This document shows positions 1,973-32,305 of a stretch of DNA of 64,000 bases, piece after piece. Below the pieces are notes generated by a model. It made no database searches. It was not told where the DNA came from and saw only the letters and a list, made by a program, of their open reading frames with translations. Position 1 is the stretch's first letter. Each line of letters starts with the position of its first letter. A program made the position numbers and the translations under genes. This stretch comes from Enterobacter sp. JUb54 (GTDB lineage: Bacteria; Pseudomonadota; Gammaproteobacteria; Enterobacterales; Enterobacteriaceae), in NCBI RefSeq assembly GCF_014298075.1, contig NZ_CP060418.1, forward strand, positions 2,666,001-2,730,000, given 5' to 3'.

Positions 1973-2034
1973 TCATCGGTATGGTCAGCGCAAGAGGTTG
2001 TCACGCAGCCTCTTGCGCCAGCGACCGGTATCAT

Positions 2035-2817: not shown

Positions 2818-3067
2818 TGATATACCAGAGTCGAAGAGGTTATTTGAAGCGTAGACGATTTATGACAACGGGAAGGGCCAGGGCGGGATTTAATGTTATT
2901 TCAGTGGATTATGGTGCTGCAGACGATAAGCGATGTGTATCGTTCTGGTGCGTTCGGGGAAAATGGCAAAATACCCGCTTGCGTAAGCTCACATTGTAAA
3001 AGGGCAACCTCGTCAAATAACACAAGGCTGCCCTGGGGGATGACGTGAAATACTGGCTGACTCTCGC

Positions 3068-3571: not shown

Positions 3572-3715
3572 AGTACACCTCCTGATATGGCTTTATTTTT
3601 ACCGCCAGAATGTGGAGGAATAGTGAGTATCAGGATATCCAGGAGGATTCCTGGCAGATTGGATTCGCGTGAAAATAGCCGCTACGGCGAGCCGGGAAAA
3701 ACGATCGCCAATAAA

Positions 3716-3737
3716 AAAGGCCGCTTTCGCGGCCTTT
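3716..3737 (-). terminator. rho-independent terminator
   Basis: Perfect 9-bp stem (AAAGGCCGC with its complement) around a tetraloop that reads GAAA on the minus strand, followed on that strand by a run of T. It lies 38 bases past the stop codon of the repeat-protein gene, so it ends that transcript. Confidence 0.85.
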
Positions 3738-3774
3738 ATCAGGGACATCTTCAGTACGGATTCAGAGACGTTGA

Positions 3775-4200
3775 TTATTCAGTGACTTTATTTTTTAAGT
3801 CTTCAGCGCCCTTTTTGGTATCGTCCCAGCCTTTAGCTGCACCGTCTTTGGTGGCATCCCACCCTTTTTCGGTGGCGGCTTTGGTTTTATTCCAGCCTTT
3901 TTCCGTGCCTTCTTTGGTTTTATCCCAGCCCTTTTCCGTCCCTTCCTTGGTCTTATTCCAGGTTTTTTGAGCGCCTTCGCTCACCTGGCTGCCGACGCTA
4001 TCGCTTTTGCCTTGCGCCGCATGTTCGGATTTCAGCTTCAGCTCATCGCCCTCGTTCTGGGCCTGATGCAGTTTTTCCTTGGCGGTATTCGCCTGTTCAT
4101 GAGCCGCCGCGACGGTATCATCAGTTGCGTGTGTTGTCGCAGCAAAAACCGGGGCTGCTACCAGAATCGCAGATAATGCAATTATTGCTTTTTTCATCAT
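3775..4200 (-). CDS. secreted protein with five tandem 11-residue amphipathic repeats
   Basis: Signal peptide MKKAIIALSAILVAAPVFA, then about 60 charged residues, then five tandem 11-residue repeats. Each has the form KGWDKTKEGTE; the variants are KTWNKTKEGTE, KGWDKTKEGTE, KGWNKTKAATE, KGWDATKDGAA and KGWDDTKKGAE. Such 11-mer Lys/Thr/Glu repeats resemble LEA- or apolipoprotein-type amphipathic helices, suggesting a periplasmic stress or membrane-surface protein. No function can be assigned. The start is placed at the ATG-ATG pair next to AGAGAGGA; an upstream in-frame ATG at 4233 has no ribosome-binding site and would spoil the signal peptide. Either ATG of the pair (4200 or 4197) is possible. 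Confidence 0.7.
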   Translation of the reverse strand: MMKKAIIALSAILVAAPVFAATTHATDDTVAAAHEQANTAKEKLHQAQNEGDELKLKSEHAAQGKSDSVGSQVSEGAQKTWNKTKEGTEKGWDKTKEGTEKGWNKTKAATEKGWDATKDGAAKGWDDTKKGAEDLKNKVTE

Positions 4201-4416
4201 GTCCTCTCTAACGTTCTTAATGTTATGAGTCACCTACAGAATGGCATAACATTCCGGTCATGACTTTAGGGATAGTTCTTAAAACTATTTCTGGCCGCAT
4301 TCACCCGTTTTCAGGCTAAACCTTTCGACATTCCGGTACGGGCGTATACCTTCCAGTAAGTTTGTAACATTCCATTAAAATCCATGGCCATATACCTGCC
4401 GTTTATTTTCATACGC

Positions 4417-4436
4417 GAATAATTATCAAAATCATT
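4417..4436 (+). promoter_or_regulatory. candidate Fur box
   Basis: AATAATTATCAAAATCATT (4418-4436) matches the 19-bp Fur consensus GATAATGATAATCATTATC at 12 positions by hand alignment. It lies 30 bases before the start of the siderophore-type importer operon, the expected place for iron repression. No binding score could be computed. Confidence 0.45.
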
Positions 4437-4465
4437 CTATTATAAATTCGCAACGGTACTCATTT

Positions 4466-5587
4466 ATGGCAATGAAATCAGTAAGATCGCTCATATTATT
4501 CAACGCACTCATCGGCACTCCTTTGCTGAGCTATGCCAGTCAGTATCCGCTTACGGTCACCGACCTCGACGGCCGAACCATTACCCTCCAGCATGAACCG
4601 CAGCGCATTATTTTGCAGGACGGACGGGATCTGATGGCGCTGGCGCTGCTGGACCGCGATAACCCGTTTAAACGGGTGGTGGCGTGGAATAATCTCGCGA
4701 AAAAACAGGATATTGCCACCTGGGAAATGCTCAAGCAGAAGTGGCCGCAGTCGGCCGCCATTCTGGATATGGGGTTCAGCGACAAAGGCAATGTCGACCT
4801 GGAAAGCGTGCTCTCCCGCCAGCCGGACCTGATGATTGCCCAGTTGCGCGCGAAGCCGGCGCTGACCGAAAGCGGCATCATCGGCAAGCTGGCGGCGCTG
4901 AATATACCGGTGCTGTTTGTCGATTATGAGATCAACCCGGCCAGGGACACCGCGCCCAGTATCGACCTGCTAGGCCAGGTCCTCAACCGCGAAAGCAACG
5001 CCAAAGCCTATACCGACTACTACCGCCAGCATCTGCAGGCCATTGTGCAGAAAACGGCGGCTATCACCCCGAAAGCGACGGTGTTTGTCGAAGCGCTGGC
5101 CGGCAATAGCGATGCCTGCTGCTTCACCCACGGGCATAGCGGCTGGGGCGGTCTGGTCGAGGCGGTGGGCGCCAACAATATTGGCTCACAGGTGCTGCCC
5201 GGCGCCTCCGGCTTTGTGTCGCTGGAAAAAATTATCAGCATGAAGCCCGACGCTTACATCATGACCGGCTCAAAACGCGGCAACAGCCAGGTGCTGCCGC
5301 TGGGTTATCAGGTCAGCCCGCAAGCGGTCAATACCCAGGCTCAGACGCTGCTGTCACGCACCGGCGTCAGCAATATCCCGGCGGTAAAAGGCCAGCACGC
5401 TTACGGGGTTTACCATCATTTCTACAACCACCCGTGGAATATCGTGGGGATGGAGTATCTGGCGAAAGATATCTATCCGCAGCCCTTTAGCACCCTCGAT
5501 TCGAATGCGACCTACCACTACATCGTGCGCCATTTCACTACGCTGCCCGATCTGCCGTTCGTCTTTTCCTGGAAACAAGGTGAGTAA
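4466..5587 (+). CDS. siderophore/iron-type ABC transporter substrate-binding protein
   Basis: A 373-residue periplasmic binding protein with a signal peptide ending near residue 25 (LSYAS). The mature part begins YPLTVTDLDGRTITL and continues EPQRIIL, the usual start of FecB/FepB/BtuF-type proteins that deliver ferric siderophores or corrinoids. Further class features are LESVLSRQPDLMIAQ and a C-terminal domain with GANNIGSQVLPGASGFVSLE. No lipobox is visible, so it should be soluble in the periplasm. It is followed at 6 bases by the permease and then the ATPase, forming a complete importer. No outer-membrane TonB receptor is adjacent, so the ligand is unknown. The start could be 4466 or the ATG two codons later; the ribosome-binding site is poor. 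Confidence 0.85.
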   Translation: MAMKSVRSLILFNALIGTPLLSYASQYPLTVTDLDGRTITLQHEPQRIILQDGRDLMALALLDRDNPFKRVVAWNNLAKKQDIATWEMLKQKWPQSAAILDMGFSDKGNVDLESVLSRQPDLMIAQLRAKPALTESGIIGKLAALNIPVLFVDYEINPARDTAPSIDLLGQVLNRESNAKAYTDYYRQHLQAIVQKTAAITPKATVFVEALAGNSDACCFTHGHSGWGGLVEAVGANNIGSQVLPGASGFVSLEKIISMKPDAYIMTGSKRGNSQVLPLGYQVSPQAVNTQAQTLLSRTGVSNIPAVKGQHAYGVYHHFYNHPWNIVGMEYLAKDIYPQPFSTLDSNATYHYIVRHFTTLPDLPFVFSWKQGE

Positions 5588-5593
5588 CCCCGC

Positions 5594-6676
5594 ATGAGTT
5601 CAACCACTGAACCCGGTATCCGCACGGCGACCATCGACGCGGATGACGTCATGGCGCACTATCGCCGCATCCTGCGCCGCCGCCTCGGCCTGATGCTGGT
5701 GCTGCTGCTGTTGATTGTCGCTTCCCTGTTGCTCGATTTTGTCCTCGGGCCGTCCGGCATATCGCTGCATACCCTGTGGCAAACCCTGACCGCTCCCGGC
5801 AGCACCGGCGCCGGAACCCAGGTGATCGTCTGGGATATCCGCCTGCCTTACGCGCTGATGGCGGTGGTGGTTGGCCTCGCGCTGGGGCTGGCGGGAGCCG
5901 AGATGCAGACCATCCTCAATAATCCCCTCGCCAGCCCTTTCACCCTCGGGGTCTCCTCGGCGGCGGCATTTGGCGCGGCGCTGGCTATCGTGCTGGGGAT
6001 CGGCATTCCCGGCATCCCCGCCCAGTGGTTTGTTTCGGCCAACGCCTTTATCTTCGCCCTGCTGGCGGCGCTGCTGCTGGACGGCATCACCCGCTGGACC
6101 CAGGTCGCGACCTCGGGGGTGATTCTGTTTGGTATCGCGCTGGTCTTTACCTTCAACGCGCTGGTGTCGATGCTGCAGTTTGTCGCCAACGAAGATACCC
6201 TTCAGGGCCTGGTGTTCTGGACCATGGGCAGCATCGATCGCGCCTCGTGGCAAAAGGTCGGGATTTTGCTGGCGGTGCTGGCGGTGGTGATGCCCCTGTC
6301 GATGCTCAACGCCTGGAAACTGACCGCGCTGCGCCTCGGTGAAGACCGGGCCGTCAGCTTTGGTATTCACGTCCGTCGCCTGCGGCTGACCACGCTGCTG
6401 CGCATCAGTATTCTGTCGGCGCTGTCGGTGGCCTTCGTCGGGCCGATTGGCTTTATCGGACTCGTGGCCCCGCATATCGCGCGCCTGATGTTTGGCGAGG
6501 ACCATCGGTTTTATCTCCCCGCCAGCGCCTGCATCGGGGCACTGGTGCTCTCGCTGGCGTCGGTGGCCTCAAAAAATCTGCTCCCCGGCGCCATTATTCC
6601 GGTCGGCATCGTGACCTCGCTGGTCGGCGTCCCCTTCTTCCTGAGCATTATTTTGCGCCATCGGGGGAACGTATGA
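5594..6676 (+). CDS. FecCD-family ABC transporter permease
   Basis: A 360-residue inner-membrane permease with an Arg-rich cytosolic N-terminus (HYRRILRRRLG) and about nine hydrophobic segments. It carries the hallmark cytosolic loop GFIGLVAPHIARLMFGEDH near residues 275-297, which docks the ATPase in BtuC/FecCD/FhuB permeases. One permease of this length forms a homodimer. It has an AAGGTGAG ribosome-binding site and its stop codon overlaps the start of the ATPase gene (ATGA), showing tight co-translation. Substrate is a ferric siderophore or haem-like chelate by family; exact identity unknown. Confidence 0.92.
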   Translation: MSSTTEPGIRTATIDADDVMAHYRRILRRRLGLMLVLLLLIVASLLLDFVLGPSGISLHTLWQTLTAPGSTGAGTQVIVWDIRLPYALMAVVVGLALGLAGAEMQTILNNPLASPFTLGVSSAAAFGAALAIVLGIGIPGIPAQWFVSANAFIFALLAALLLDGITRWTQVATSGVILFGIALVFTFNALVSMLQFVANEDTLQGLVFWTMGSIDRASWQKVGILLAVLAVVMPLSMLNAWKLTALRLGEDRAVSFGIHVRRLRLTTLLRISILSALSVAFVGPIGFIGLVAPHIARLMFGEDHRFYLPASACIGALVLSLASVASKNLLPGAIIPVGIVTSLVGVPFFLSIILRHRGNV

Positions 6677-7476
6677 GCCAGCATGCTCCAGAACCAACCG
6701 GGCTGACGATCGGCCATTTCAACGCCGGTTATCCAAAACGCCAGGTGATCCGCGACCTCACGGTTCCCCACCTGCCACGTGGCAAAATCACCGCCCTGCT
6801 CGGCCCTAACGGTAGCGGGAAATCAACCCTGATGCGGGCCATTGCGGGTCTTGGCCCCTCCACGGGAGAGCTGTCGCTGGCCGGGGAAAACCTGCTGACG
6901 CTGCCGTTCGCCCGGCGAGCGGAAAAAGTGGTCTATCTGCCGCAAACCTTGCCGGCCGGGGTACATCTGCATGTGCTGGAGTCGATTATCGTCGCCCAGC
7001 GTGCGGCGGGCGGCCTTCATCAGGCCGATAACCCGGCAGAAGTGATGTCCCTGCTGCGCCTGCTGGGCATTGAGCACCTGGCGCTCAGCTATCTCGATCA
7101 GCTTTCCGGCGGGCAGAAACAGCTCGTCGGTCTGGCACAGTCGCTGATCCGCCAGCCGGCGTTACTGCTGCTCGATGAGCCCCTGAGCGCATTAGATTTA
7201 AATTACCAGTTTCATGTGATGGACCTGGTGCGCAAGGAGACCCGCCGTCGGCATATCACCACCCTGGTGGTGGTGCACGATATTAATATTGCCCTGCGGC
7301 ATGCCGATCATATGGTGATGTTAAAAGAGGGGCGGCTGCTGGCCGACGGCCCGCCGTCGCAGGTGATTACGCCGGAGATTTTAGCGGCGGTGTACGGCGT
7401 TCGCGGCCGTGTGGAACCCTGTTCTCAGGGGATCATGCAGGTGATTATTGACGGTCTGGCAATCCCGGCGGGATAA
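6673..7476 (+). CDS. siderophore-type ABC transporter ATP-binding protein
   Basis: A 267-residue ABC ATPase. Walker A GPNGSGKST is at 44-52, the ABC signature LSGGQ at 144-148, Walker B LLLLDEP at 164-170, and the switch histidine in VVVHDIN. Sequence style and length fit the FecE/FepC/BtuD class that powers FecCD permeases. It is the last gene of the importer operon and overlaps the permease stop by four bases. A hairpin follows at 7480-7509. All motifs are intact. Confidence 0.93.
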   Translation: MSQHAPEPTGLTIGHFNAGYPKRQVIRDLTVPHLPRGKITALLGPNGSGKSTLMRAIAGLGPSTGELSLAGENLLTLPFARRAEKVVYLPQTLPAGVHLHVLESIIVAQRAAGGLHQADNPAEVMSLLRLLGIEHLALSYLDQLSGGQKQLVGLAQSLIRQPALLLLDEPLSALDLNYQFHVMDLVRKETRRRHITTLVVVHDINIALRHADHMVMLKEGRLLADGPPSQVITPEILAAVYGVRGRVEPCSQGIMQVIIDGLAIPAG

Positions 7477-7479
7477 GCA

Positions 7480-7509
7480 AACGGCCCGGGTTTTGTCGCC
7501 CGGGCCGTT
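7480..7509. terminator. hairpin between convergent genes
   Basis: Perfect 11-bp stem (AACGGCCCGGG with its complement) around an 8-base loop, located between the stop codons of the ABC importer operon and the yiaV-like gene. T-runs are weak on both sides, so it may act as a bidirectional terminator or as an mRNA end protector. Confidence 0.6.
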
Positions 7510-7522
7510 CGTCGTCTGTCAA

Positions 7523-8665
7523 TTAATGGTCGAGATAGAGATAGTTTTCCCAGCTCTTCATGCGGATCAGGATCTTTCTGATCAGCAGCAGTTCTTTCAT
7601 ATGGTCGGAGTAGACCGCCGCTTCAACCGTCGCCCCTTGCGGTAGCTTATAGTTTTTGAAGCGATCGTCGGTGACCTTCATCACCACCAGCGCACGCCCC
7701 TGGGTGTTTAGCGCCGCGGTCGTCAGCAGTTTTCCCTGTCCCTGGAACTGGCTTTCACCAATTGCCGGCAGCACAGCGGCCACTTCGCCCTGGAAGACGG
7801 TGCCCGGGATCGCCGGGAACATCAGCTCAGCCGTTTCGCCTTTTTCCAGGCGCTGCAGCGAGTTCTGACGGAAGGCGGCCACGTACAGTCGATCTGCAGG
7901 TGCCACCATCGGCACAAACGTCATCACCGGCGCCAGTCCCAGCGCGGTCGACATGGTGCCAGGACGCAGGCCAACGGTGCTGACATAGCCGTCGGAAGGT
8001 GCGCGCACCACGGTGTTGTCGAGTTTAAACTGGGCCTTGCGCAGTTGCGCCAGCAGCGAGGCGACGGTGGTATTCTCCCCCTTCACAACCGAGTTCAAAT
8101 CGTTCTTCGCCCGCACCACTTCAGCCTGGGCGGCTTTAACGCTGGCCTCATCGGCTTTCCAGGTCTGAAGACGGGTATCCACCATCTGATCGGAGAAGGC
8201 GCCTTTGTTGTGCCCTTCCTGATAACGCGCATATTCGCGCTGCGCCTGGTCACGTTCGGCCACCGCTTTATTGAGGTTGGCCTGCGCGCTGTTCAGTGCG
8301 GAATTCAGCGACAGCGCGTTCTGGCTGGCCTGTTTCACCTGCGCTTCCAGATCATCGACCTTCGACTGATACGGCGTCGGGTCGATGGTAAACAGGATGT
8401 CATCTTTATGCAGCATCTGGTTGGCTTTCACCGGCACCGTTAAGACACGACCGCGCACCTGCGAAACAATCGGGACGGTACGAAAAACCTGATTCCCCAC
8501 TTCGGTAAACGGCGCGTTATAGTTCATACCAAAAATCACGCCGCCAATCAGTATCACGCCGCCCAATACCGCGGTCGGTACTGTCCATTTATTTAATGGA
8601 ATGTGGAATATTTTAAATATCGCAATACACAGCGCGGCATAGGTCAGAAGCATTAACGTTTCCAT
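7523..8665 (-). CDS. yiaV: HlyD-family membrane fusion protein, YiaV-like
   Basis: A 380-residue membrane fusion protein. There is an N-terminal signal anchor (two hydrophobic segments near 5-20 and 30-47), a biotinyl/lipoyl-like half starting SQVRGRVLTVPVKANQ, a long alpha-hairpin (about 95-195) rich in Ala/Gln/Lys, then APSDGYVSTVGLRPGT and a beta-barrel domain. In E. coli yiaV and yiaW sit together in the same order. The family normally bridges an inner-membrane pump to an outer-membrane channel; no pump gene is adjacent. The start at 8665 overlaps the stop of the upstream yiaW-like gene. Confidence 0.8.
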   Translation of the reverse strand: METLMLLTYAALCIAIFKIFHIPLNKWTVPTAVLGGVILIGGVIFGMNYNAPFTEVGNQVFRTVPIVSQVRGRVLTVPVKANQMLHKDDILFTIDPTPYQSKVDDLEAQVKQASQNALSLNSALNSAQANLNKAVAERDQAQREYARYQEGHNKGAFSDQMVDTRLQTWKADEASVKAAQAEVVRAKNDLNSVVKGENTTVASLLAQLRKAQFKLDNTVVRAPSDGYVSTVGLRPGTMSTALGLAPVMTFVPMVAPADRLYVAAFRQNSLQRLEKGETAELMFPAIPGTVFQGEVAAVLPAIGESQFQGQGKLLTTAALNTQGRALVVMKVTDDRFKNYKLPQGATVEAAVYSDHMKELLLIRKILIRMKSWENYLYLDH

Positions 8666-22564: not shown

Positions 22565-22626
22565 AAAAAAAAAGACCAAAACAGAGACGCTCCCCATATA
22601 CGGGAGAGCATTCCTATTTTGGTCTT
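22565..22626 (-). terminator. leader terminator of the bgl operon
   Basis: On the minus strand AAGACCAAAA pairs with TTTTGGTCTT across an inner GCTCTCCC/GGGGAGC-type stem, followed by nine T. It stops transcription before bglF unless the overlapping antiterminator hairpin forms. The upstream arm (22621-22626) is shared with that hairpin. Confidence 0.88.
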
Positions 22627-22649
22627 GCCTGCTTTCGCAGTAGCACGCC
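22621..22649 (-). promoter_or_regulatory. ribonucleic antiterminator (RAT) bound by BglG
   Basis: On the minus strand this 29-base element keeps the bgl RAT pattern: GG at the 5' end, TACTGC, a four-base loop, GCAGGCAA and a final ACC. Its last six bases are part of the terminator stem, so RNA bound by the antiterminator cannot form the terminator. Length and spacing are the same as in the E. coli bgl leader. Confidence 0.88.
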
Positions 22650-22755
22650 ATCATAAAAATGGGTTATTTCGGCGGATTATCTCAGCGGCCTTTACCGATT
22701 TCAATGGCGACCGAACAAAAGTGTGAACTGGATTAAGTAAATTCTTAAGTCAATA

Positions 22756-23685
22756 TCAACCCAGAGCCTGGTGGCGTAACCAGCTCTGCAAGAGTTTCGC
22801 GTTCGCCGTCATATCGCTGTCCTGGCGCACGCAAAGGTAGTAATCCCGGCCATCCTCGATGGTGGCGTCGATGATTTTCACCAGCTCGCCGCTGTTCAGA
22901 TAGGGCGCGATCAGCGGTTCGCGCATCAGGGCGCAGCCGAGGCCCGCCTGAACGCCCGCCAGGGTCAGCAGGCCATCTTCAAACAGCGGCCCCGTCGAGC
23001 GCGGCGGGCGTTTCACCCCCTGCTGAACAAACCACTGGTTCCACGTCGTGCGCTCCTCGTCATGGAGCAACGGCATCTGCAGTAGCTGTTCCGGCGTATC
23101 GATATGCCCGTGCAGGCGGATAAACGCCCGGCTGCATACCGGCACCATTCTGCCGGATATCAACTTTTCGCTCTGATATCCGGCCCACTGCCCGTCGCCA
23201 AAACGAATCGACATGTCCGATGCATCGCTCAGATAGTTACGATGGTTGGCATAGACCACGTTGATTTCGGTATGGGGGTTGGCGTGGACAAAAGACGGCA
23301 GGCGAGGAATAAACCAGCCCATCCCGAACAGCGGGATCAGGCTGATCGTCACCTGCTGAGTTTGCACCTGATCCACCAGATGCTCGGTGGCCTGGCGCAG
23401 CACATTAAACGCCGCGCGGATCGAGCGGTAATACTCCCGCCCCTGCTGGCTCAGGGTCAGCCGCCGGCCCTGCCTTTCGGTCAGCGAAATTTGCAGGTAC
23501 TCCTCCAGCACTTTCAGCTGATGGCTCACCGCCGAGGGTGAAATAGCCAGCTCCCGGGCGGCCTGCGTCACGCTGCCCAGACGGGCGATAGCCTCAAACG
23601 CGCGCACCGCCCGCAGCGGCGGATCGTTGGTCAACGTGCTTTCGGTGGTGAGTTCCGGCCCCGCCAATGATTCTGTTTTTTTCAT
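22756..23685 (-). CDS. LysR-family transcriptional regulator
   Basis: A 309-residue LysR-type regulator with an N-terminal extension of about 24 residues, a winged helix (25-84; VTQAARELAISPSAVSHQL) and a GcvA-like effector domain (FIPRLPSFVHANPHTEIN, GDGQWAGYQSE). It is divergent from the ABC/amidohydrolase operon across 171 bases, the classic arrangement in which the regulator controls the facing operon and itself. The effector is probably the imported substrate or an intermediate; that is inference. Confidence 0.88.
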   Translation of the reverse strand: MKKTESLAGPELTTESTLTNDPPLRAVRAFEAIARLGSVTQAARELAISPSAVSHQLKVLEEYLQISLTERQGRRLTLSQQGREYYRSIRAAFNVLRQATEHLVDQVQTQQVTISLIPLFGMGWFIPRLPSFVHANPHTEINVVYANHRNYLSDASDMSIRFGDGQWAGYQSEKLISGRMVPVCSRAFIRLHGHIDTPEQLLQMPLLHDEERTTWNQWFVQQGVKRPPRSTGPLFEDGLLTLAGVQAGLGCALMREPLIAPYLNSGELVKIIDATIEDGRDYYLCVRQDSDMTANAKLLQSWLRHQALG

Positions 23686-23856
23686 ATGTTGATTTTCTTA
23701 GTGCAGTCCACGTTTTTGCCGCTCATTTAATATGATTAAAAATCATAAAGATACAAATAATCACAAACTTCATAAGAAAGAATATATCCGTATTTTACAA
23801 TTTAATTCATTTATTAGATGGTAGCCGTAATTTGAGCACATTGTCGGGTTATTCAG

Positions 23857-24807
23857 TTGGACACTCTCATACAACAACTTATAAACGGGGTCATGCTCGG
23901 CAGCATCTACGCCCTAATCGCCCTCGGCTATACCATGGTGTATGGCATTCTGCGGATTATTAACTTCGCCCACGGCGATATCCTGATGGTCGGCGCGTTG
24001 ACCACGCTGTCCGGGATGAATGCGTTGAATGCCCATTTCCCCGGTCTGTCGCCGCTGGCGCAACTGGTGCTGGCGTTGATGCTGGCAATGATCATCTGCG
24101 GCCTGCTGGCCATGGCGGTGGAGCGCTTTGCCTACCGTCGCCTGCGCAACGCGCCGCGCCTGGCGCCGCTGATCTCCGGGATCGGCGTTTCGGTACTGCT
24201 GCAAACCGTGGCGATGATCGTCTGGTCCCGTAACCCGCTAATGTTCCCGCAGATCCTGCCGATGGACCCGATCGCCGTGACCCACGGCAGCGCCGGGCAC
24301 CCGCCGGCGATCGTCACCGTGACCGGCATCGTCACCGTCGCGCTGGCGCTGGCGGTGATGCTCGGCCTGTGGCTGCTGGTGGAATTTACCCGCCTGGGCC
24401 GCGGCATGCGCGCGGTGGCGGAAAACCCGCGTATCGCCACGCTGATGGGCGTTAACCCCAACGCCATTATTGCCCTGACCTTTGCCATTGGCGGCGCGTT
24501 TGCGGCCCTGGCCGGGGTGATGATGGCCAGCAACTACGGCAATGCCAGCTTCTCGATGGGCTTTCTGCCCGGCATTAAAGCGTTTACCGCCGCGGTACTC
24601 GGCGGCATCGGCAACATTCGCGGAGCCATGGTCGGCGGCCTGCTGCTGGGCCTGATCGAATCCCTGGGCGCCGGTTATCTCGGCGACCTGACCAACGGCG
24701 TCTTCGGCAGCAACTATCAGGATATCTTTGCCTTTATGGTGCTGATTCTGGTGCTGGTCTTCCGCCCTGCCGGTTTGCTCGGCGAACGCGTCGCGCACCG
24801 GGCTTAG
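23857..24807 (+). CDS. LivH-type branched-chain/amino acid ABC permease
   Basis: A 316-residue permease of the HAAT (LivH) class. It begins MDTLIQQLINGVMLGSIYAL and contains the typical LGRGMRAVAENPRIATLMGV loop near 180-200. The frame opens with TTG at 23857, which fits the family N-terminus exactly; no ATG lies near, and the ribosome-binding site is weak, suggesting low initiation. It is the first of seven co-directional genes with very small gaps. By family it moves amino acids or amides; here the enzymes downstream suggest a cyclic or carbamoylated amino acid derivative. Confidence 0.9.
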   Translation: MDTLIQQLINGVMLGSIYALIALGYTMVYGILRIINFAHGDILMVGALTTLSGMNALNAHFPGLSPLAQLVLALMLAMIICGLLAMAVERFAYRRLRNAPRLAPLISGIGVSVLLQTVAMIVWSRNPLMFPQILPMDPIAVTHGSAGHPPAIVTVTGIVTVALALAVMLGLWLLVEFTRLGRGMRAVAENPRIATLMGVNPNAIIALTFAIGGAFAALAGVMMASNYGNASFSMGFLPGIKAFTAAVLGGIGNIRGAMVGGLLLGLIESLGAGYLGDLTNGVFGSNYQDIFAFMVLILVLVFRPAGLLGERVAHRA

Positions 24808-24816
24808 GAGAGAACA

Positions 24817-25923
24817 ATGACAACAGCACAACTCGATACCCCTCTCGTCTCCCGCCGCTTCTGGTCCGGCATGACCCTGTTCATCTGCGCGCTGCTGGTC
24901 GCCCCCATCGTCGCCAGCCAGCTCGGCGGTAACTATTGGGTGCGGGTCATCGACTTCGCCCTGCTGTACATCATGCTGGCGCTGGGGCTGAACATCGTGG
25001 TCGGCTACACCGGCCTGCTGGATATGGGCTTTATCGCCTTTTACGCCGTCGGCGCCTATCTGGCAGCACTGCTGGCCTCGCCGCATCTGCTGGAAGTATT
25101 CCCGGTCTTAAATCAGTGGTTCCCGGATGGCCTGCACACCTCGTGGCTGGTGATTATTCCGCTCGCCGCGCTGGTGGCGGCGGGCTGCGGTATCGTGCTC
25201 GGCGCGCCAACGCTGAAGCTGCGCGGCGACTACCTGGCGATCGTCACCCTCGGGTTCGGCGAAATTATCCGCATTCTGATGCGCAACCTCGACCGCCCGG
25301 TCAACATCACCAACGGCGCCAAAGGTATTTCCGGGGTCGATACGCTGAATCTGTTCGGCCTGAAGTTTAGCGGCGTCTATCACTGGTTCGGCGTTAAAGT
25401 CCCGGCGCTGTGGCTGTGGTACTACCTGCTGATGCTGGTCATCGTGGCGATTATTTTCGTCTGTCTGCGCCTGCAGCACTCACGTATCGGCCGTGCCTGG
25501 CACGCCATTCGTGAAGATGAAGACGTTGCCCGCGCGATGGGCATTAATCTGCGCAACTACAAGCTGCTGGCCTTCGCCATCGGCGCCTCCTTCGGCGGCG
25601 TCGCCGGGGCGTTGTTCGGCGCATTTCAGGGCTTCGTTTCGCCGGAATCCTTCACCCTGCAGGAATCGATTGCGGTGCTGGCGATGGTGGTGCTGGGCGG
25701 GATGGGCCACATTCCGGGGGTGATCCTCGGCGCGGTGCTGCTCACTGCGCTACCGGAGCTGCTGCGTAGCCAGGCCGCCCCGCTACAGCAGGCGCTGTTT
25801 GGCGAGGTGCTGATCGACCCGGAAATTCTGCGCCAGCTATTTTATGGCCTGGCGCTGGTGCTGGTGATGCTGTTACGCCCGCAGGGCATCTGGCCCGCGC
25901 GCCATCAAGGAGCCAAAGCATGA
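24817..25923 (+). CDS. LivM-type ABC permease
   Basis: A 368-residue second permease of the HAAT importer. It contains VRVIDFALLYIMLALGLNIV, GYTGLLDMGFIAFYAVGAYL and the ATPase-contact loop SRIGRAWHAIREDEDVARAM near 220-240, all LivM hallmarks. AGGAGAG precedes the ATG. Its stop overlaps the start of the livG-type gene by four bases. It forms the heterodimeric channel with the preceding permease. Confidence 0.92.
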   Translation: MTTAQLDTPLVSRRFWSGMTLFICALLVAPIVASQLGGNYWVRVIDFALLYIMLALGLNIVVGYTGLLDMGFIAFYAVGAYLAALLASPHLLEVFPVLNQWFPDGLHTSWLVIIPLAALVAAGCGIVLGAPTLKLRGDYLAIVTLGFGEIIRILMRNLDRPVNITNGAKGISGVDTLNLFGLKFSGVYHWFGVKVPALWLWYYLLMLVIVAIIFVCLRLQHSRIGRAWHAIREDEDVARAMGINLRNYKLLAFAIGASFGGVAGALFGAFQGFVSPESFTLQESIAVLAMVVLGGMGHIPGVILGAVLLTALPELLRSQAAPLQQALFGEVLIDPEILRQLFYGLALVLVMLLRPQGIWPARHQGAKA

Positions 25924-26687
25924 GCCTGTTAAGCGTGCGCCATATGTTCAAGCGCTTCGGCGGCCTGACGGCGGTCGATAACGTGTCGCTGACGATCGAT
26001 GACGGCGAAATCTACGGCCTGATTGGCCCCAACGGCGCAGGCAAAACCACCTGCTTCAACCTGATTACCGGGCTGTACCCGGCGGACAGCGGCGAGTTTG
26101 CCATCGCCGGAGAGCCCTATTCGCCGAAAAATATCGAGAAGGTCACCGCCGCCGGGATCGCCCGTACCTTTCAGAATGTGCGGCTGTTCAACGAGATGTC
26201 GGTGCTGGAAAACGTGATGGTGGGCCGCCACGTGCGTACCCGCAATGGTCTGTGGGCCGCCCTCTCCCGCCATAAACGCGCCCGTGCCGAAGAGGCGCAG
26301 ACCCGCGAGCTGGCGTGGCACTGGCTGGAGTATACCGGCATCGCACAGTTCGCCCACTACCGCGCCTGCGACCTTGCCTATGGCCACCAGCGGCGGCTGG
26401 AAATTGCCCGTGCGCTGGCTACCGAACCGCGCCTGCTGGCGCTGGATGAACCCGCCGCCGGCATGAACGCCGCCGAGAAGATGGCGCTTGGCGAACTGCT
26501 GCTGCGGATTCGCAACGACGGTAAAACGCTGCTGATGATTGAGCATGACGTCAAGCTGGTGATGGGGATCTGCGATCGCCTGATGGTGCTGGATTACGGC
26601 AAAACCTTAACCAGCGGCACGCCGGATACCGTCCGCCGCGATCCGGCGGTTATCGCCGCCTGGCTGGGAGGCAATGCCCATGTCTGA
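25920..26687 (+). CDS. LivG-type ABC ATP-binding protein
   Basis: A 255-residue ABC ATPase. Walker [10 protein letters not shown] is near 36-44, the family-specific RTFQNVRLF is present, Walker B is LLALDEP followed by the LivG-type AAGMN, and the switch is MIEHDVKLV. The signature region reads [10 protein letters not shown], the usual LivG form in place of a canonical LSGGQ. It powers the importer together with the next gene. Confidence 0.93.
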
Positions 26688-27399
26688 TTTATTAACCGTT
26701 AACCAACTTGCCGTCCATTACGGCGGTATCCAGGCGGTACGCGACGTCTCCTTTAGCGTTAAAGAAGGCGAGCAAACCACGCTTATTGGCGCCAACGGCG
26801 CGGGCAAAAGCTCAACCGTTCGCGCCATTACCGGGCTGGAACCCTTTAGCGGCGACATCCTGTTTAATGGCAAGCCGATACGCCAGCGCCGGGCCGACGC
26901 CCTGCTGCGCGAAGGGCTGGTGATGGTGCCGGAAGGTCGCGGCATCTTTGCCCGTATGACGGTGCTGGAAAACCTGCAAATGGGCGCCTGGCTACGTCGC
27001 GATAGCGCGGCGGTCCGCCAGGAAATGAGCGATATTTTCGCCGCTTTTCCACGCCTTGCCGAACGTCAGCATCAGCTGGCCGGACTGCTTTCCGGCGGTG
27101 AACAACAGCTGCTGGCGCTCAACCGCGCCCTGCTCAGCCAGCCGCGTCTGCTGATCCTCGACGAACCGTCGATGGGTCTGGCGCCGTTGATGGTAGAGAA
27201 CATTTTCCGGGTGATTGCCACCCTGCGCCAGCGTGGCGTGGCCCTGCTGCTGATTGAGCAGAACGCCCGTCTGGCGCTGGAGGCAACCGACAGCGCCTGG
27301 GTTATGGACAGCGGCAGCATCGTCGAGCGCGGTCCGTCGCAGACGCTGCTGGCCGATGACCGGATTGCACAGATTTATTTGGGCGAAATGCCCGCTTAA
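26680..27399 (+). CDS. LivF-type ABC ATP-binding protein
   Basis: A 239-residue ABC ATPase of the LivF class. Walker A is GANGAGKSS, and VMVPEGRGIFARMTV, signature LSGGEQQ, Walker B LLILDEPSMGLAP and switch LIEQN are all present. The start at 26680 is preferred because GGGAGG lies 8 bases upstream; the ATG two codons earlier is only 2 bases from it. The gene overlaps the end of the livG-type gene by 8 bases. Confidence 0.93.
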   Translation: MSDLLTVNQLAVHYGGIQAVRDVSFSVKEGEQTTLIGANGAGKSSTVRAITGLEPFSGDILFNGKPIRQRRADALLREGLVMVPEGRGIFARMTVLENLQMGAWLRRDSAAVRQEMSDIFAAFPRLAERQHQLAGLLSGGEQQLLALNRALLSQPRLLILDEPSMGLAPLMVENIFRVIATLRQRGVALLLIEQNARLALEATDSAWVMDSGSIVERGPSQTLLADDRIAQIYLGEMPA

Positions 27400-27426
27400 C
27401 ACACCAACCAGCCTCAGGGAAAAACA

Positions 27427-28584
27427 ATGAAAACAGCAACAATCAGTGCGCTCAGCGCCGCTATTCTGCTCAGTGGTTTTGCCTCATCCGCCGTATGGGC
27501 GCAGGCGCAAGAAACCGTGATTATAGGCCTGGCAGGCCCGCTGACCGGCCCTTCCGCGCGTATCGGCAAGGACCTGGAAAACGGCGCGCAGCTCGCCATT
27601 GACGATATCAACAAACAGCACCCGACCATCGGCGGCAAGGCGGTAACCTTCAAGCTGCAATCGGAAGACGATCAGTCCGACCCGCGTACCGCCGTTGCCG
27701 TCGCCCAGCGCCTGGTCGACAGCGGCGTCGCCGGCGTGGTCGGTCACTGGAACACCGGCACCAGTATTCCCGCCGCGCGCGTCTATCATGATGCCGGGAT
27801 TGCCCAGGTGGCGCCGGTTGCGACCGGGCACGCCTATACCAAACAGGGCTTCGACACCAGCTTCCGCGTAATGGGCCACGACGATGACGGCGGCCAGTTT
27901 GCCGGACAGTACGCGGTACAAACCCTGAAGGCCAAGCGCATTGCGGTTATCGATGACCGTACCGCCTTCGGTCAGGGGCTGGCGGATGAGTTTATTAAGT
28001 CGCTGGAAGCGCAGGGTATCAACATCGTTGACCGTCAGTATGTCGATGACAAAACCATCGACTTCAGCGCCGTCCTGACCGCGATCCGCAGCAAGAACGC
28101 CGATCTGATTTTCTTCGGCGGCGTCGATAGCCAGGCCGCTCCGCTGGCGCGCCGCATCAAACAACTGGGCATGAACGCCACCCTGATGGGCGCGGGCGGT
28201 TTCGTCAGCCAGACCTTCCTCCAGCTGGCGCAGAAAGAAGGCGACGGCGTGGTCGCGCTGGAGCCGGGATTGCCGGTCGATCAGATGCCCGGCGGCAAAG
28301 CCTTTGAGCAGGCTTACCAGTCGCGCTATCACACCCATATCGAGCTGCACGCGCCGTTTGCCTACGACGCCACCCGCGTGCTGGTCGCCGCCATGGAAAA
28401 AGCCGACTCCGTCGACCCGGCCGACTACCTGCCGGCGCTGCGTGCCATTAGCTATTCCGGCGTCACCGGACAAATCGCCTTTGATAAAGAGGGCAACCTG
28501 AAAGCGCCAAGCTTTACCGTTTACAAAGTCGTCGACGGTAAATGGCAGCCGCAAACCGTACTCGGTGGCGCAAAAACGCAGTAA
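27427..28584 (+). CDS. LivJ/K-type periplasmic substrate-binding protein
   Basis: A 385-residue binding protein with a signal peptide ending near residue 25 (SAVWAQA). The mature part has VIIGLAGPLTGPSARIGKDL, GAQLAIDDIN, VVGHWNTGTSIPAA and VAPVATGHAY, the usual type I fold of Leu/Ile/Val or amide-binding proteins. It would deliver the operon's substrate to the preceding permease pair. Its ligand is probably an amino-acid-like heterocycle or carbamoyl amino acid, judged from the two hydrolases that follow. The ribosome-binding site is AGGGA. Confidence 0.92.
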   Translation: MKTATISALSAAILLSGFASSAVWAQAQETVIIGLAGPLTGPSARIGKDLENGAQLAIDDINKQHPTIGGKAVTFKLQSEDDQSDPRTAVAVAQRLVDSGVAGVVGHWNTGTSIPAARVYHDAGIAQVAPVATGHAYTKQGFDTSFRVMGHDDDGGQFAGQYAVQTLKAKRIAVIDDRTAFGQGLADEFIKSLEAQGINIVDRQYVDDKTIDFSAVLTAIRSKNADLIFFGGVDSQAAPLARRIKQLGMNATLMGAGGFVSQTFLQLAQKEGDGVVALEPGLPVDQMPGGKAFEQAYQSRYHTHIELHAPFAYDATRVLVAAMEKADSVDPADYLPALRAISYSGVTGQIAFDKEGNLKAPSFTVYKVVDGKWQPQTVLGGAKTQ

Positions 28585-28601
28585 CGCAGTGAGGCAATGT
28601 G

Positions 28602-29084
28602 ATGAGTGATAATAATGAGCTGGGCATTCTCGCCCGCCGCAAAATTGAAGCTGAAATAATCAAGCCGATTTACGACATCCTGGTGCGCGAGATAGGTAAA
28701 GCGCGCGCCCAGGCGGTCATCGGTGAAGCCATTGAAAACGCCGCCATTGAGGCGGGAAAAACCTTTGCCAGCCAGGAGCCTGACGGCGCGAATATCCAGA
28801 GCTTTGTCGCCCTGCAATATCTGTGGGAGAAAGACAACGCCCTGGAGGTCAAGGTACTGGACGCCGACGACCAGCAGTATAACTACAACGTTAACCGCTG
28901 CCGTTACGCCGAGATGTATCACGAGATGGGGCTGGGAGAGATTGGTCACCTGCTCTCCTGCGCCCGCGATGACAAATTTATCGTCGGCTACGCGCCGGAG
29001 GTGGAGCTGACCCGCACCACCACCATTATGCAGGGCGGAAAGTGCTGCGACTTCCGCTATCGCGTGAAAAAGGACAAACCATGA
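28602..29084 (+). CDS. L-2-amino-thiazoline-4-carboxylic acid hydrolase family protein
   Basis: A 160-residue protein recognised by overall similarity to the ATC hydrolase family: LARRKIEAEIIKPIYDILVR at the start, NRCRYAEMYHEMGLGEIGHL near 102-121 and GGKCCDFRYRV at the end. In Pseudomonas the family member opens L-2-amino-2-thiazoline-4-carboxylate to N-carbamoyl-L-cysteine. The ATG at 28602, with GAGG 9 bases upstream, is preferred over the GTG just before it. It overlaps the start of the N-carbamoyl hydrolase gene (ATGA), which supports a two-step pathway. Family members can differ in substrate, so the reaction is a strong inference, not proof. Confidence 0.8.
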   Translation: MSDNNELGILARRKIEAEIIKPIYDILVREIGKARAQAVIGEAIENAAIEAGKTFASQEPDGANIQSFVALQYLWEKDNALEVKVLDADDQQYNYNVNRCRYAEMYHEMGLGEIGHLLSCARDDKFIVGYAPEVELTRTTTIMQGGKCCDFRYRVKKDKP

Positions 29085-30301
29085 TAACCGTCAACGGCGA
29101 GCGCCTGTGGTCAACGCTGAACGAGATGGCGAGGATTGGCGCCACCCCGGCCGGCGGCGTGACCCGGCTGACCCTCAGCGACGAGGATCGCCAGGCGCGC
29201 GACCTGCTGCGCGAGTGGGCGCGGGAGGCCGGTTTTCCCTGCGAAGTCGATAGCATGGGCAATATGTTTATCCGCCGCGCCGGTAAAAATCCGCAGCTGG
29301 CCCCGGTATTGACCGGTTCGCATGTCGATTCCCAACCGCTCGGCGGCCGCTATGACGGCATTTACGGCGTGCTGGCCGGGCTGGAGGCGCTGCGCACGCT
29401 CAACGAGCGCGGCGTTGAAACCGAACGCGATATCCTGCTGGTCAACTGGACCAACGAGGAAGGGGCGCGCTTTGCACCGGCGATGCTCGCCTCCGGGGTC
29501 TGGGCCGGGCAGTTCAGCGAAGCTTACGCGCTGGCCCGTGAAGACCGCGACGGCATCAGCGTCGGCGCGGCGCTGGAGGCTATCGGCTATCGCGGCGAAC
29601 GTCCTACCGCCGCCTTCCCGCTGCACGCCTGCTACGAAGTGCATATCGAACAGGGGCCGATCCTGGAACAGGAAGGCATTGATATCGGCCTCGTCCACGC
29701 GGCGATGGGTCAACGCTGGTTCAACGTCTCGCTGGACGGCTTTTCCGCCCACGCCGGAACCACGCCGATGGGCAGCCGCCGCGATGCCCTGACCGCCTTC
29801 GCCGAACTGGCGCTGGCGGTTGAGCAAATCGGCATCGCCCACAACCCCGACGGGCGGGCGACTATCGGCATGGCGCAGGTGATACCGGGATCGCGCAACG
29901 TGGTGCCGGGGCGCGTGGAATGCAGCGTCGAGTTTCGCCATCCGCAAACCCCGGCGCTGGAAGCCATGGAGCGGGAGCTGCATCGTGCCGCTGAAGCGCT
30001 GGCAGCGCGTGGCGTGACGGCAAACGTCGAGCGGATTTTCGATTATGCCCCTATTGCCTTTGATGCCGGGTGTCTCGCCCGTAGCGAACAGGCGGTCGCG
30101 GCACTCGGCTACAGCGCCAGACCGATGGTCTCCGGCGCCGGTCACGATACCTGCTATATCAGCAAGGTCGCGCCCGCCAGCATGATTTTTATCCCCTGCG
30201 AGAAGGGAGTGAGTCATAACGAAGCGGAGAACATTCAGCCCGGCTGGGCAGAGAAAGGGGCCAACGTGCTGCTGCACAGCCTGCTGCTCGCCGCGTCATA
30301 A
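29081..30301 (+). CDS. N-carbamoyl-L-amino acid hydrolase (Zn M20-type amidase)
   Basis: A 406-residue metal-dependent amidase. The five family metal ligands are all visible: His in GSHVDSQP, Asp in GGRYDGIYG, Glu in TNEEGARF, His in YEVHIEQGP and His in SHNEAENI. The dimer-domain motif DGFSAHAGTTPMGSR is also present. These enzymes remove the carbamoyl group from N-carbamoyl-L-amino acids, giving the amino acid, CO2 and ammonia; coupled with the preceding gene the product would be L-cysteine. The start at 29081 has AAGGAC and the ATGA overlap; the longer frame from 29042 lacks both. Last gene of the operon. Confidence 0.88.
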   Translation: MITVNGERLWSTLNEMARIGATPAGGVTRLTLSDEDRQARDLLREWAREAGFPCEVDSMGNMFIRRAGKNPQLAPVLTGSHVDSQPLGGRYDGIYGVLAGLEALRTLNERGVETERDILLVNWTNEEGARFAPAMLASGVWAGQFSEAYALAREDRDGISVGAALEAIGYRGERPTAAFPLHACYEVHIEQGPILEQEGIDIGLVHAAMGQRWFNVSLDGFSAHAGTTPMGSRRDALTAFAELALAVEQIGIAHNPDGRATIGMAQVIPGSRNVVPGRVECSVEFRHPQTPALEAMERELHRAAEALAARGVTANVERIFDYAPIAFDAGCLARSEQAVAALGYSARPMVSGAGHDTCYISKVAPASMIFIPCEKGVSHNEAENIQPGWAEKGANVLLHSLLLAAS

Positions 30302-30607
30302 AAGTCACCATCCAGTCTCTTTATCGTCATGGCGCCACGCGGTGCCATGACGTCACTCCGTTGCACCACGACGCTCGGCCCTGCGCTAAAGGATCGGCAA
30401 CATCAAGCATAACCAAATCAAAACAATAAGTTATATTGTTTAACCCGATGACCTAAAACACATTTATTTCTGTATTTTCTGCTAAGATCAGGCAATAGAT
30501 AACATATAGTAGAGTCACTGAGCGCTCATAGCGCCATCGCTCGCCGTGGTGATTTCGTGTAACCGCGCTCAATTTGTTCTTTTTTACTGCTGACGCTTCG
30601 GGTTCGT
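30302..30607. other. intergenic stretch with one hairpin
   Basis: 306 bases between the N-carbamoyl hydrolase and diguanylate cyclase genes. Its first part holds a strong hairpin (30325-30352). The AT-rich middle (about 30410-30500) probably carries the diguanylate cyclase promoter. No reading frame or repeat was recognised. Confidence 0.5.
30325..30352 (+). terminator. hairpin after the amidase operon
   Basis: Perfect 9-bp stem CGTCATGGC with its complement and a 10-base loop, 23 bases past the stop codon. It lacks a T-run, so termination efficiency is uncertain. Confidence 0.45.
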
Positions 30608-32305
30608 GTGAAAACAAAAAAGAAATCCACAACGTCGTCCAATGTCCTGCGCTATATCTGGGGCTCCGCGCTGGCGACCATTTTTTTAACCACCATAACG
30701 TCCTTCTGGCTACTTTCCGGCTCCTGGTCGATGTGGAAAAGCGCCCATAACAACGTCATTCAGTTTGACGTTTTTTACCGCGTGCTGCAGGTCTCCAACG
30801 ACCTCGCCGGCGAGCGTGCCTTTGTCAACGAGCTGGTGCTTAGCCCGGCGGCAGAAAAAGAACAACGCTGGCAGGCGCTTATCGAACACCGAAAAATCAC
30901 CGACCGCGACCTGCAGACGATCCCAAAAGACCTGCTGTCACCGGCCCTGATGGCCGATATGGTGCAGCAACTGGAACATTCCCGTCGTCTTGCCAGTACT
31001 TTCCGTACCCAGGTACTGAGCGACCCGGATACCGCCAACCACACCATTCTCGACATGGTGGTGGCCACCGACTTCTACCATAAAGCGTTGTTTGAGCGGA
31101 CCTCTGAATTTCTGCTGCTGGAACCCAGCGCCCTCGGCCCGATCCTGCGCGCCCAGGCGCTCGGGGAATTGCGGGACGCCACCGGCCGGCTCGGTTCACA
31201 GGTGCTGATCCCGCTCGCCACGGACACCCCAATCCCCCAGACCAACCGGGAAGCGCTGATCCGTGGCATCGAGAGAATCAATACCGCCTGGTGGATCCTG
31301 CAAACCCAGGGCGATGAATCCACCTATCTGCCGCATTTCCAGAGTAAGCTGGATAGCACGCGCCGCGCCTTCGAAAAAGAGGGTATTGCCTTAATTAATC
31401 AGCTAAAAACTGAGAGTGATAATGGTATGCCCTACAGCGTGGATGCCGAAGGTTTTGCCACCCGCTACCACGCCAGCCTCAGCGCCTTCGATAATTTGCT
31501 CGATACCTATATGACCGGCGTGAAAGATCACTACACCGCTACCGAGCACCAGGCATTGCGGAGTTTCCTGTTACGACTGGTGGTGCTTGGGTTGATCTAT
31601 GCCCTGACCATCGCGATGATTTTCTACATTCGCTCCCGGGTGTTACGACCGATTCTGCGCTTAAACGATATCGCCGCGGCGCTGATTGCGGGTAAACAGC
31701 TGCATGTGCAGATCGATGACGACACCGCCGAAGAGGTGCAGGAACTGTTTTCCTCGCTGGGCACTTTAGGGGAGAAACTGCATGAAGATGCCCTGCTCAG
31801 CCGTAAATATCAGCGCGAGTCGGAAGAAGACCCGCTGACCCACCTGTATAATCGCCGGGCCTTTACCAACCAGGCCAATGCCCGCATCAGCCAGTCCAGC
31901 AAGGCGCTTCCGGCGTGGTTAATCATGCTGGATGTCGACCGCTTTAAGTCGATTAACGATAACTGGGGGCACCCGATGGGTGATGAAGTGCTGGTGGCTC
32001 TCGCCAATACCTTGCAGAAGTGCAGCCGCCCGGAGGACGTGGTGGGCCGTCTTGGGGGAGAAGAGTTTGCGGTGCTGCTGTTAGCCAAAACCGCGGATGA
32101 GGTTGCCCGCTACGCCAGCACTATTCAGCAGGAAATCCGCAAGCTGACGTTCCATACCACCGGGAATCACACCTTTAAAGTCACCGCCAGTTTCGGGGTC
32201 TCCCGGGGCTGGCAGTGCCCGCTGACCGAGCTGCTGTCGCAGGCCGACAGCGAGTTGTATAAAGCCAAAAACAGCGGCCGCGACCGGATTTGCGGCCTCC
32301 CCTGA
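30608..32305 (+). CDS. membrane-bound diguanylate cyclase (GGDEF)
   Basis: A 565-residue protein that would make cyclic di-GMP. A transmembrane helix at about 20-40, a periplasmic sensor region of about 280 residues, a second helix at about 320-342, a HAMP-like linker (343-395) and a C-terminal GGDEF domain are visible. The active-site loop reads GGEEF at 483-487, compatible with activity, and an RxxD inhibitory site (RPED, 474-477) lies five residues before it, so product feedback is expected. The metal-binding LDVDRFKSIND is intact. It starts with GTG at 30608. The ligand of the periplasmic domain is unknown. Confidence 0.92.
   Translation: MKTKKKSTTSSNVLRYIWGSALATIFLTTITSFWLLSGSWSMWKSAHNNVIQFDVFYRVLQVSNDLAGERAFVNELVLSPAAEKEQRWQALIEHRKITDRDLQTIPKDLLSPALMADMVQQLEHSRRLASTFRTQVLSDPDTANHTILDMVVATDFYHKALFERTSEFLLLEPSALGPILRAQALGELRDATGRLGSQVLIPLATDTPIPQTNREALIRGIERINTAWWILQTQGDESTYLPHFQSKLDSTRRAFEKEGIALINQLKTESDNGMPYSVDAEGFATRYHASLSAFDNLLDTYMTGVKDHYTATEHQALRSFLLRLVVLGLIYALTIAMIFYIRSRVLRPILRLNDIAAALIAGKQLHVQIDDDTAEEVQELFSSLGTLGEKLHEDALLSRKYQRESEEDPLTHLYNRRAFTNQANARISQSSKALPAWLIMLDVDRFKSINDNWGHPMGDEVLVALANTLQKCSRPEDVVGRLGGEEFAVLLLAKTADEVARYASTIQQEIRKLTFHTTGNHTFKVTASFGVSRGWQCPLTELLSQADSELYKAKNSGRDRICGLP

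Follow-up and report, generated by a model that had tools for sequence, protein, structure and literature searches.

Which compound does a bacterium take up when an importer resembling those for branched-chain amino acids is encoded together with two enzymes of a cysteine-forming pathway? The question is raised by a stretch of 64,000 nucleotides (nt) from Enterobacter sp. JUb54 (positions 2666001–2730000 of a genome of 5.30 Mb in one contig), which we call the window. In it, a gene cluster at 2.69 Mb consists of a divergent LysR gene followed by genes for LivH, LivM, LivG, LivF, a binding protein, a PF14196 protein of the AtcB type and an M20 carbamoylase of the AtcC type. We read this cluster, with a probability of roughly 0.6, as a scavenging operon through which L-2-amino-2-thiazoline-4-carboxylate (ATC), the predicted substrate, would be imported and converted to L-cysteine. 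A preliminary description of the window had listed eight genes with their positions and families, all of which were borne out by the open reading frames (ORFs) and by Pfam. Together with the shared upstream region, they are:

22756–23685, minus strand: LysR-type regulator, GcvA-like, 309 amino acids (Pfam HTH_1 66.2 bits, LysR_substrate 88.7 bits)
23686–23856, no strand: divergent promoter/operator region, with conserved blocks between the LysR gene and the operon
23857–24807, plus strand: LivH-type permease, TTG start (PF02653)
24817–25923, plus strand: LivM-type permease (PF02653)
25920–26687, plus strand: LivG-type ATPase (PF00005 and PF12399, that is ABC_tran and BCA_ABC_TP_C)
26674–27399, plus strand: LivF-type ATPase (PF00005, ABC_tran)
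27427–28584, plus strand: periplasmic binding protein, 385 amino acids (PF13458, Peripla_BP_6, 205.3 bits)
28602–29084, plus strand: AtcB-type PF14196 protein, putative L-ATC hydrolase, 160 amino acids (Pfam ATC_hydrolase, 147.2 bits against a cut-off of 28.1)
29081–30301, plus strand: AtcC-type M20 N-carbamoyl-L-amino acid amidohydrolase, 406 amino acids (Peptidase_M20, 90.7 bits)

A conserved unit of regulator, importer and enzymes

The comparison drew on 84 loci, namely the best 80 of 95 relatives obtained from named genomes with close-match patterns and 4 of 84 plasmid records, and an importer ortholog was counted at 50% identity or more. AtcB is followed by AtcC in all 84 loci, which upholds the proposed pairing of the two enzyme types, and in 70 of them the pair is preceded by a full LivH-M-G-F-binding protein set; in three others (Burkholderiales) the binding protein is the sole Liv-type ortholog. 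One locus, L043, has AtcC and LivM each split between frames. Since the same gene order recurs across many genera, the arrangement is not due to chance; it forms a real unit that is conserved widely. It is also carried by a conjugative plasmid of Kosakonia cowanii, where the importer is annotated as a branched-chain amino acid transporter. The AtcB-type protein of the window is 99% identical to a Raoultella ornithinolytica protein and the remaining operon proteins are 91–97% identical to those of the same strain; the chromosome is of the Raoultella/Klebsiella kind. Within the window's genus, counting the present genome, AtcB occurs in 14 of 20, and a blastn search of 5,426 E. coli genomes found no AtcB-AtcC DNA.

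The seven operon genes are co-directional, as had been described, but they were also said to be mostly overlapping, and overlaps occur at only three of the six junctions (LivM/LivG, 4 nt; LivG/LivF, 14 nt; AtcB/AtcC, 4 nt; in order, the junctions measure 9, −4, −14, 27, 17 and −4 nt, a spacing like that of an operon). The overlap of AtcB and AtcC suggests that their translation may be coupled. LivH starts at TTG 23857, where the aligned starts of relatives are TTG, GTG or ATG. For AtcB, ATG 28602 is more likely to be the start than GTG 28599, which opens its ORF, and for AtcC the more likely start is ATG 29081, inside an ORF listed from 29042.

The LysR gene does not face the operon, as had been thought, but stands head to head with it in divergent orientation. 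Both this gene and the region upstream of the operon are conserved together with the operon, in agreement with the idea that the regulator belongs to it: a LysR match (at least 45% identity) is present in 79 of the 84 loci, and the intergenic region contains a block ATAAGaAA..At.t.T..GTATTT.ACAA conserved in 54 enterobacterial sequences and a block TTGATAAAaA.AGAAT in 21 Pseudomonas sequences. In loci that lack the importer (L079, L084, L093 and L094), the Pseudomonas block is retained ahead of AtcB, which would suit a single LysR operator for importer and enzymes. Inverted repeats in the intergenic region are 7 nt long; a promoter scan found no sigma-70-like site there, and over 22600–30700 no excess over shuffled sequences. 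The best NCBIfam model for the regulator is GcvA (NF008352), at 251.9 bits under a cut-off of 288. Given the conserved divergent arrangement, the LysR protein would control the operon from the shared intergenic region, and it looks undescribed in the literature searched, among the matches listed.

Beyond the unit, a GGDEF diguanylate cyclase gene lies immediately downstream (30608–32305) and occupies the same place in three other Raoultella loci (L024, L026 and L032); as it is missing there in the remaining compared loci, we regard it as lineage-specific and outside the operon unit. Rfam and tRNA scans of the window returned a single tRNA-Arg, distant from the cluster, and nothing else.

The importer and its binding pocket

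By Pfam, the importer has the architecture of an HAAT-type ABC importer, with two BPD_transp_2 permeases (162.4 and 171.1 bits), two ATPases and a Peripla_BP_6 protein. It shares this architecture and these families with LivJ/LivK-LivHMGF, but differs from that system in its scores, in the pocket at LIVBP positions 77–79 and 226, and in a sulfur-poor binding protein. All five components score under the cut-offs of the NCBIfam Liv models (LivH 222.5 bits against 379, LivM 270.8 against 366, LivG 278.9 against 362, LivF 231.1 against 441, binding protein 224.3 against 477).

In alignments to LIVBP and to 3IP5, LIVBP residues Leu77-Cys78-Ser79, Thr102 and Glu226 are matched by W108-N109-T110, T133 and G257 of the window protein, and these five residues are invariant in all 76 binding proteins compared (the window and 75 loci). 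As controls, 30 PF13458 loci yielded 26 proteins, three of them of this cluster type (one being the window's own); of the other 23, among which L197 and L210 are the same ORF, eight align well enough for the pocket to be read and 15 are too distant. At the position of LIVBP Glu226 all 76 orthologs have Gly, whereas all eight readable controls have Asp or Glu. We take Glu226 to be the ligand of the alpha-ammonium group in LIVBP. Because ATC and N-carbamoyl-cysteine lack a free alpha-ammonium group, loss of the acid would fit a ligand of this kind and disfavour plain amino acids. Docking to LivJ places Ser79 and Thr102 in contact with the ligand, and the excerpted account of it does not give Glu226 (PMC6983066).

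The binding protein is sulfur-poor as well, with a mean of 1.2% Cys+Met against 2.0–3.8% in the eight controls. A purely sulfur-limited role, as in sulfur starvation, is no more than suggested, because the low content is shared neither by AtcB (4.4%) nor by the permeases (5.7 and 3.3%).

Could an ordinary branched-chain amino acid importer simply have come to lie beside two enzymes by chance? Every component is Liv-type by Pfam, as this explanation would have it, but the scores below all five Liv cut-offs, the fixed changes in the pocket, the presence of LivJ/LivK-like proteins elsewhere in this genome (4.37 Mb) and the strict co-occurrence of importer and AtcB-AtcC described below leave it scarcely credible. 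Judged by the missed cut-offs and the change of Glu226 to Gly, this is no ordinary importer of branched-chain amino acids.

Co-occurrence was read in 249 Pseudomonas genomes, their genus being inferred from loci identical to named Pseudomonas loci. PF14196 is found in 24 of these, with AtcC adjacent in 21; 19 of the 21 pairs fall in the clade of the window and two in its sister at 52–54% identity. In a reverse test on the same 249 genomes, with the binding protein alone as query (E 1e-120 or better), an ortholog of 76–80% identity was found in 18 genomes, each of them one of the 21 that carry AtcB-AtcC, and in none of the 228 others (Fisher p = 1.2e-24, uncorrected for shared ancestry). In two of the 18, AtcB is close to a contig end and the binding protein lies on a different contig. 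The three AtcB-AtcC genomes that lack the ortholog comprise two with the divergent sister pair (L160 and L164) and one (L166) that keeps mere remnants of LivH and the binding protein; in this Pseudomonas locus, seen also as L232 (5946–9282), LysR and AtcB-AtcC are present.

Elsewhere an importer of another family takes this place. Two Neisseriaceae bins and Apibacter mensalis, a member of another phylum, each have, ending 25–36 nt before the AtcB ORF, a gene for a single fused SBP_bac_3-permease-ATPase protein (relative to the first Neisseriaceae copy, identity is 89.6% for the second and 61.3% for that of Apibacter), and a fourth locus, L090, although cut by a contig end, still shows the end of the fused-importer gene. 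That different importer families are joined to the same enzyme pair suggests that uptake of the pair's substrate matters. A further observation comes from a Neisseriaceae bin (L086, 10963–13508): some 240 nt downstream of AtcC lie the genes of an importer that, like methionine importers, has a NIL-domain ATPase and an NlpA lipoprotein.

The dedicated importer posited in the preliminary description is therefore backed by reverse co-occurrence, by divergence of the pocket and by substitution with an importer of another family. From linkage and pocket, we propose that the periplasmic protein would capture ATC and that the LivFGHM-like ABC importer would bring it into the cell. No ATC transporter is named in the literature searched, among the matches listed, which did not cover the primary paper; within the same scope neither the importer nor its joining to AtcB-AtcC was found, and both look undescribed.

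The two enzymes and the predicted substrate

Both enzymes belong to the families of the Pseudomonas ATC pathway (strains BS, ON-4a and TS1138), in which AtcB is the L-ATC hydrolase and AtcC the N-carbamoyl-L-cysteine amidohydrolase. The two genes are adjacent there in the same order as in the window, and close relatives of the window's enzymes are found in Pseudomonas genomes; the names AtcB and AtcC and the gene order reportedly come from the original papers on these enzymes. The window cluster differs in that a Liv-type importer and a GcvA-like LysR gene are joined to the pair in a single operon, and in having no racemase. Excerpted reports describe conversion of ATC to L-cysteine in Pseudomonas (PMC10821248, PMC5847659) and C–S cleavage by the Pseudomonas ATC hydrolase. 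By family, the PF14196 enzyme would open the ATC ring at the C–S bond to give N-carbamoyl-L-cysteine, and the M20 amidohydrolase would strip the carbamoyl group, yielding L-cysteine, CO2 and ammonia. The enzyme chemistry is known in kind, and what is new, as far as the literature searched shows, among the matches listed, lies in the importer with its pocket and in the regulator.

In 34 aligned proteins, distant ones included, the invariant columns of AtcB include C100, E104, C120, D123, R138, T141, G145 and C149, which likely mark a metal or thiol site. The AlphaFold2 model of AtcB (pLDDT 90.8) matches V4R-type sensors (MopR/PoxR/DmpR), Bet3/TRAPP and H-NOX; these are sensors or trafficking proteins, not hydrolases, and their likeness in fold shows no function for AtcB. 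The matches agree with a remark on the PF14196 family, its conserved cysteines included, in an extract of PMC5847659, and a PDB sequence search with AtcB found no relative (one match, E 0.74).

Distant relatives of AtcB were sampled by family in 398 genomes (the phylum sample). PF14196 matches 30 of these, this one included, and gave 29 new loci and two further matches without a locus. Five of the new loci adjoin AtcC, with AtcB proteins 66–89% identical to that of the window, whereas seven loci at 28–49% identity and 17 weak ones have no adjacent AtcC; most of the sampled loci are about 3.4 kb long, so that absence there means absence within about 1.5 kb. Reading the seven over about 14 kb gave no AtcC match. 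Because only close relatives of the window protein adjoin AtcC, PF14196 is, judged from these neighborhoods, functionally mixed, with the AtcC-linked clade a separate part of the family.

Two other settings of PF14196 proteins were noted. A second, distant member (179 amino acids) is present in nine of 20 same-genus genomes, and in the one read widely (L180, G015:C1:1588500-1602500, positions 1021–7977) its neighbors are a polar amino acid-type ABC importer, a P5C-reductase-like protein and an enzyme of the D-serine-dehydratase/alanine-racemase fold, possibly another cyclic amino acid salvage route. In L172 (6088–8265), the gene for a PF14196 protein of 49% identity is flanked on one side by an Asp/Glu racemase-family gene and on the other by a gene for an alpha/beta hydrolase, with no AtcC.

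For AtcC, all 84 sequences compared (those of the window and of 83 loci, without L043, whose frame is broken) share H81, D92, E126, E127, H188 and H379; H81, D92, E126/E127, H188 and H379 are presumably the metal ligands of the amidase superfamily. Among its solved relatives are L-carbamoylases and a beta-ureidopropionase, and at a greater distance allantoate amidohydrolase. PDB 4WJB, a putative amidohydrolase/peptidase whose molecule name states no substrate, is nearly identical to the AtcC that adjoins AtcB in Burkholderia L105 (904 bits over 411 residues) and scores 475.5 bits with the AtcC of the window.

A link to cysteine comes from the divergent Pseudomonas pair, whose AtcB is 52–54% and AtcC 45% identical to the window proteins. 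Two such loci (L230, 3570–10351, and L231, 3400–10047) encode AtcB, AtcC, a Cds1-like desulfhydrase, an MFS transporter, LysR and a EutA/arylmalonate-decarboxylase-like protein. The desulfhydrase, a pyridoxal-phosphate enzyme, follows AtcC downstream together with the transporter; the L230 copy scores 555.6 bits (E 5e-167) with L-cysteine desulfhydrase Cds1, just under the cut-off of 600, and the L231 copy is 90% identical to it. Past the LysR gene, which is divergent, lies the gene of a protein related to arylmalonate decarboxylase and to Asp/Glu racemases, whose nearest NCBIfam model is EutA, below cut-off (177.2 against 318). With a desulfhydrase homolog and a racemase-family gene, L230 and L231 hold the gene set that complete conversion of DL-ATC to pyruvate, sulfide and ammonia would require, and we regard them as a candidate for a complete cluster of DL-ATC degradation that may include a racemase. 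The cysteine link is supported by analogy, being drawn from the desulfhydrase homolog in a relative and not from the window locus.

Several points weigh against ATC as the substrate. The Cds1 link is confined to the divergent pair, which has a LysR and a transporter unlike those of the window; a Liv-type ortholog is missing in 11 of the 84 loci; PF14196 relatives below about 50% identity do not adjoin AtcC, in a family that is mixed; and the putative orthology to the characterized AtcB and AtcC rests on elimination within Pseudomonas. In the excerpted review, moreover, a figure routes the pathway via S-carbamoyl-cysteine, the N-carbamoyl route being named as one of two, and the ATC work covered used the DL racemate as process substrate (PMC10821248), so natural substrates may differ. 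Finally, AtcC exceeds the NCBIfam cut-offs of two broad 'allantoate amidohydrolase' subfamilies, NF006769 and NF006771 (584.4 bits against 452 and 404.4 against 399), and those for a Zn-dependent hydrolase (485 against 461) and a hydantoinase/carbamoylase amidase (401.6 against 204).

The allantoate subfamily scores, together with the N-carbamoyl-beta-alanine amidohydrolase among the solved relatives, would suit scavenging of ureide nitrogen (allantoate, ureidopropionate) with a general amidase. We consider this very unlikely, as AtcC falls far short of the AllC equivalog TIGR03176 (237.6 against 597.75), one of three other amidases of its superfamily in this genome is an allantoate amidohydrolase equivalog (782 against 584), and the fixed PF14196 partner would be left unexplained.

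The main rival to ATC is a near ring analogue. The same logic could apply to another substrate, be it a cyclic amidine acid (2-amino-oxazoline or 2-amino-imidazoline carboxylate, or the homologous thiazine), a hydantoin-like ring opened to another N-carbamoyl amino acid, or an imported N-carbamoyl amino acid. The mixed nature of PF14196, the broad members of the carbamoylase superfamily and the lack of sulfur involvement within the window cluster itself all favor such a substrate, but the Cds1-type homolog adjoining the divergent pair and the sulfur-poor binding protein count against it, as does the result that Pfam found no hydantoinase among nine proteins scanned; we hold it possible, though on the unlikely side. 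Plant thiazolidine acids, raphanusamic acid (2-thioxo) or 2-oxothiazolidine-4-carboxylate, would match the many locus hosts that, by their genus names, are plant- or soil-associated. Opening of their ring should, however, yield no N-carbamoyl product and would give no role to the carbamoylase that all 84 loci carry, which makes these ligands highly improbable.

Racemase-family genes and the cyanide connection

The earlier statement that the cluster contains no racemase holds for PF01177, which matches this genome at four places (one below cut-off) at 2.09, 3.09, 3.85 and 5.00 Mb, while PF17645 was not searched in this genome. We know of no cloned ATC racemase gene. Homologs of the arylmalonate-decarboxylase-like (Amdase-like) gene adjoin AtcB-AtcC in L230, L231 and L059 (the L230 and L059 homologs being 39% identical), and in L070 one lies about 6 kb from AtcB-AtcC on the opposite strand. 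The case for this gene as the ATC racemase is suggestive only; the Asp/Glu racemase-family gene of L172 was ruled out as a close relative of it by comparison.

In L059 and L070, the Amdase-like gene heads a separate NitT/TauT-type transporter operon (the L059 binding protein and ATPase were assigned by Pfam, the rest by ORF starts and BLAST). It is apparently the same operon in Pantoea coffeiphila (L059, 10895–14220, next to AtcB-AtcC) and in an Enterobacterales bin (L070, 14235–17649), comprising an Amdase-like protein, an NMT1-type binding protein, a permease and an ATPase.

Cyanide and cystine react to form ATC, according to extracts of the literature; the connection to cyanide rests on this chemistry and has no support in the window locus. 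A separate observation concerns plasmid pAM01 of Aminobacter sp. MSH1 (L107, 615–10947), where a cytochrome bd oxidase with a DUF2474 protein, which we take to be of the cyanide-insensitive type, is encoded some 6 kb away from AtcB-AtcC; the proximity may be coincidence. Tentatively, and with more doubt than confidence, one may envisage a widespread and exchangeable salvage of the cyanide-cystine adduct, consisting of a dedicated ATC ABC importer with AtcB-AtcC, importers of other families elsewhere and, in some Pseudomonas and Pantoea, the EutA/arylmalonate-decarboxylase-like two-cysteine protein as ATC racemase. ATC is treated as a marker of cyanide exposure and as a starting material for cysteine in PMC9291117, PMC11269370 and PMC10821248, the available extracts of which state no reason for bacterial ATC degradation.

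If the cluster does serve ATC, it would point to ATC-like compounds as genuine nutrients, and a transporter and a regulator could be named for the ATC pathway. The binding protein could then serve to sense ATC, and the label 'branched-chain amino acid ABC transporter' and others like it would be corrected.

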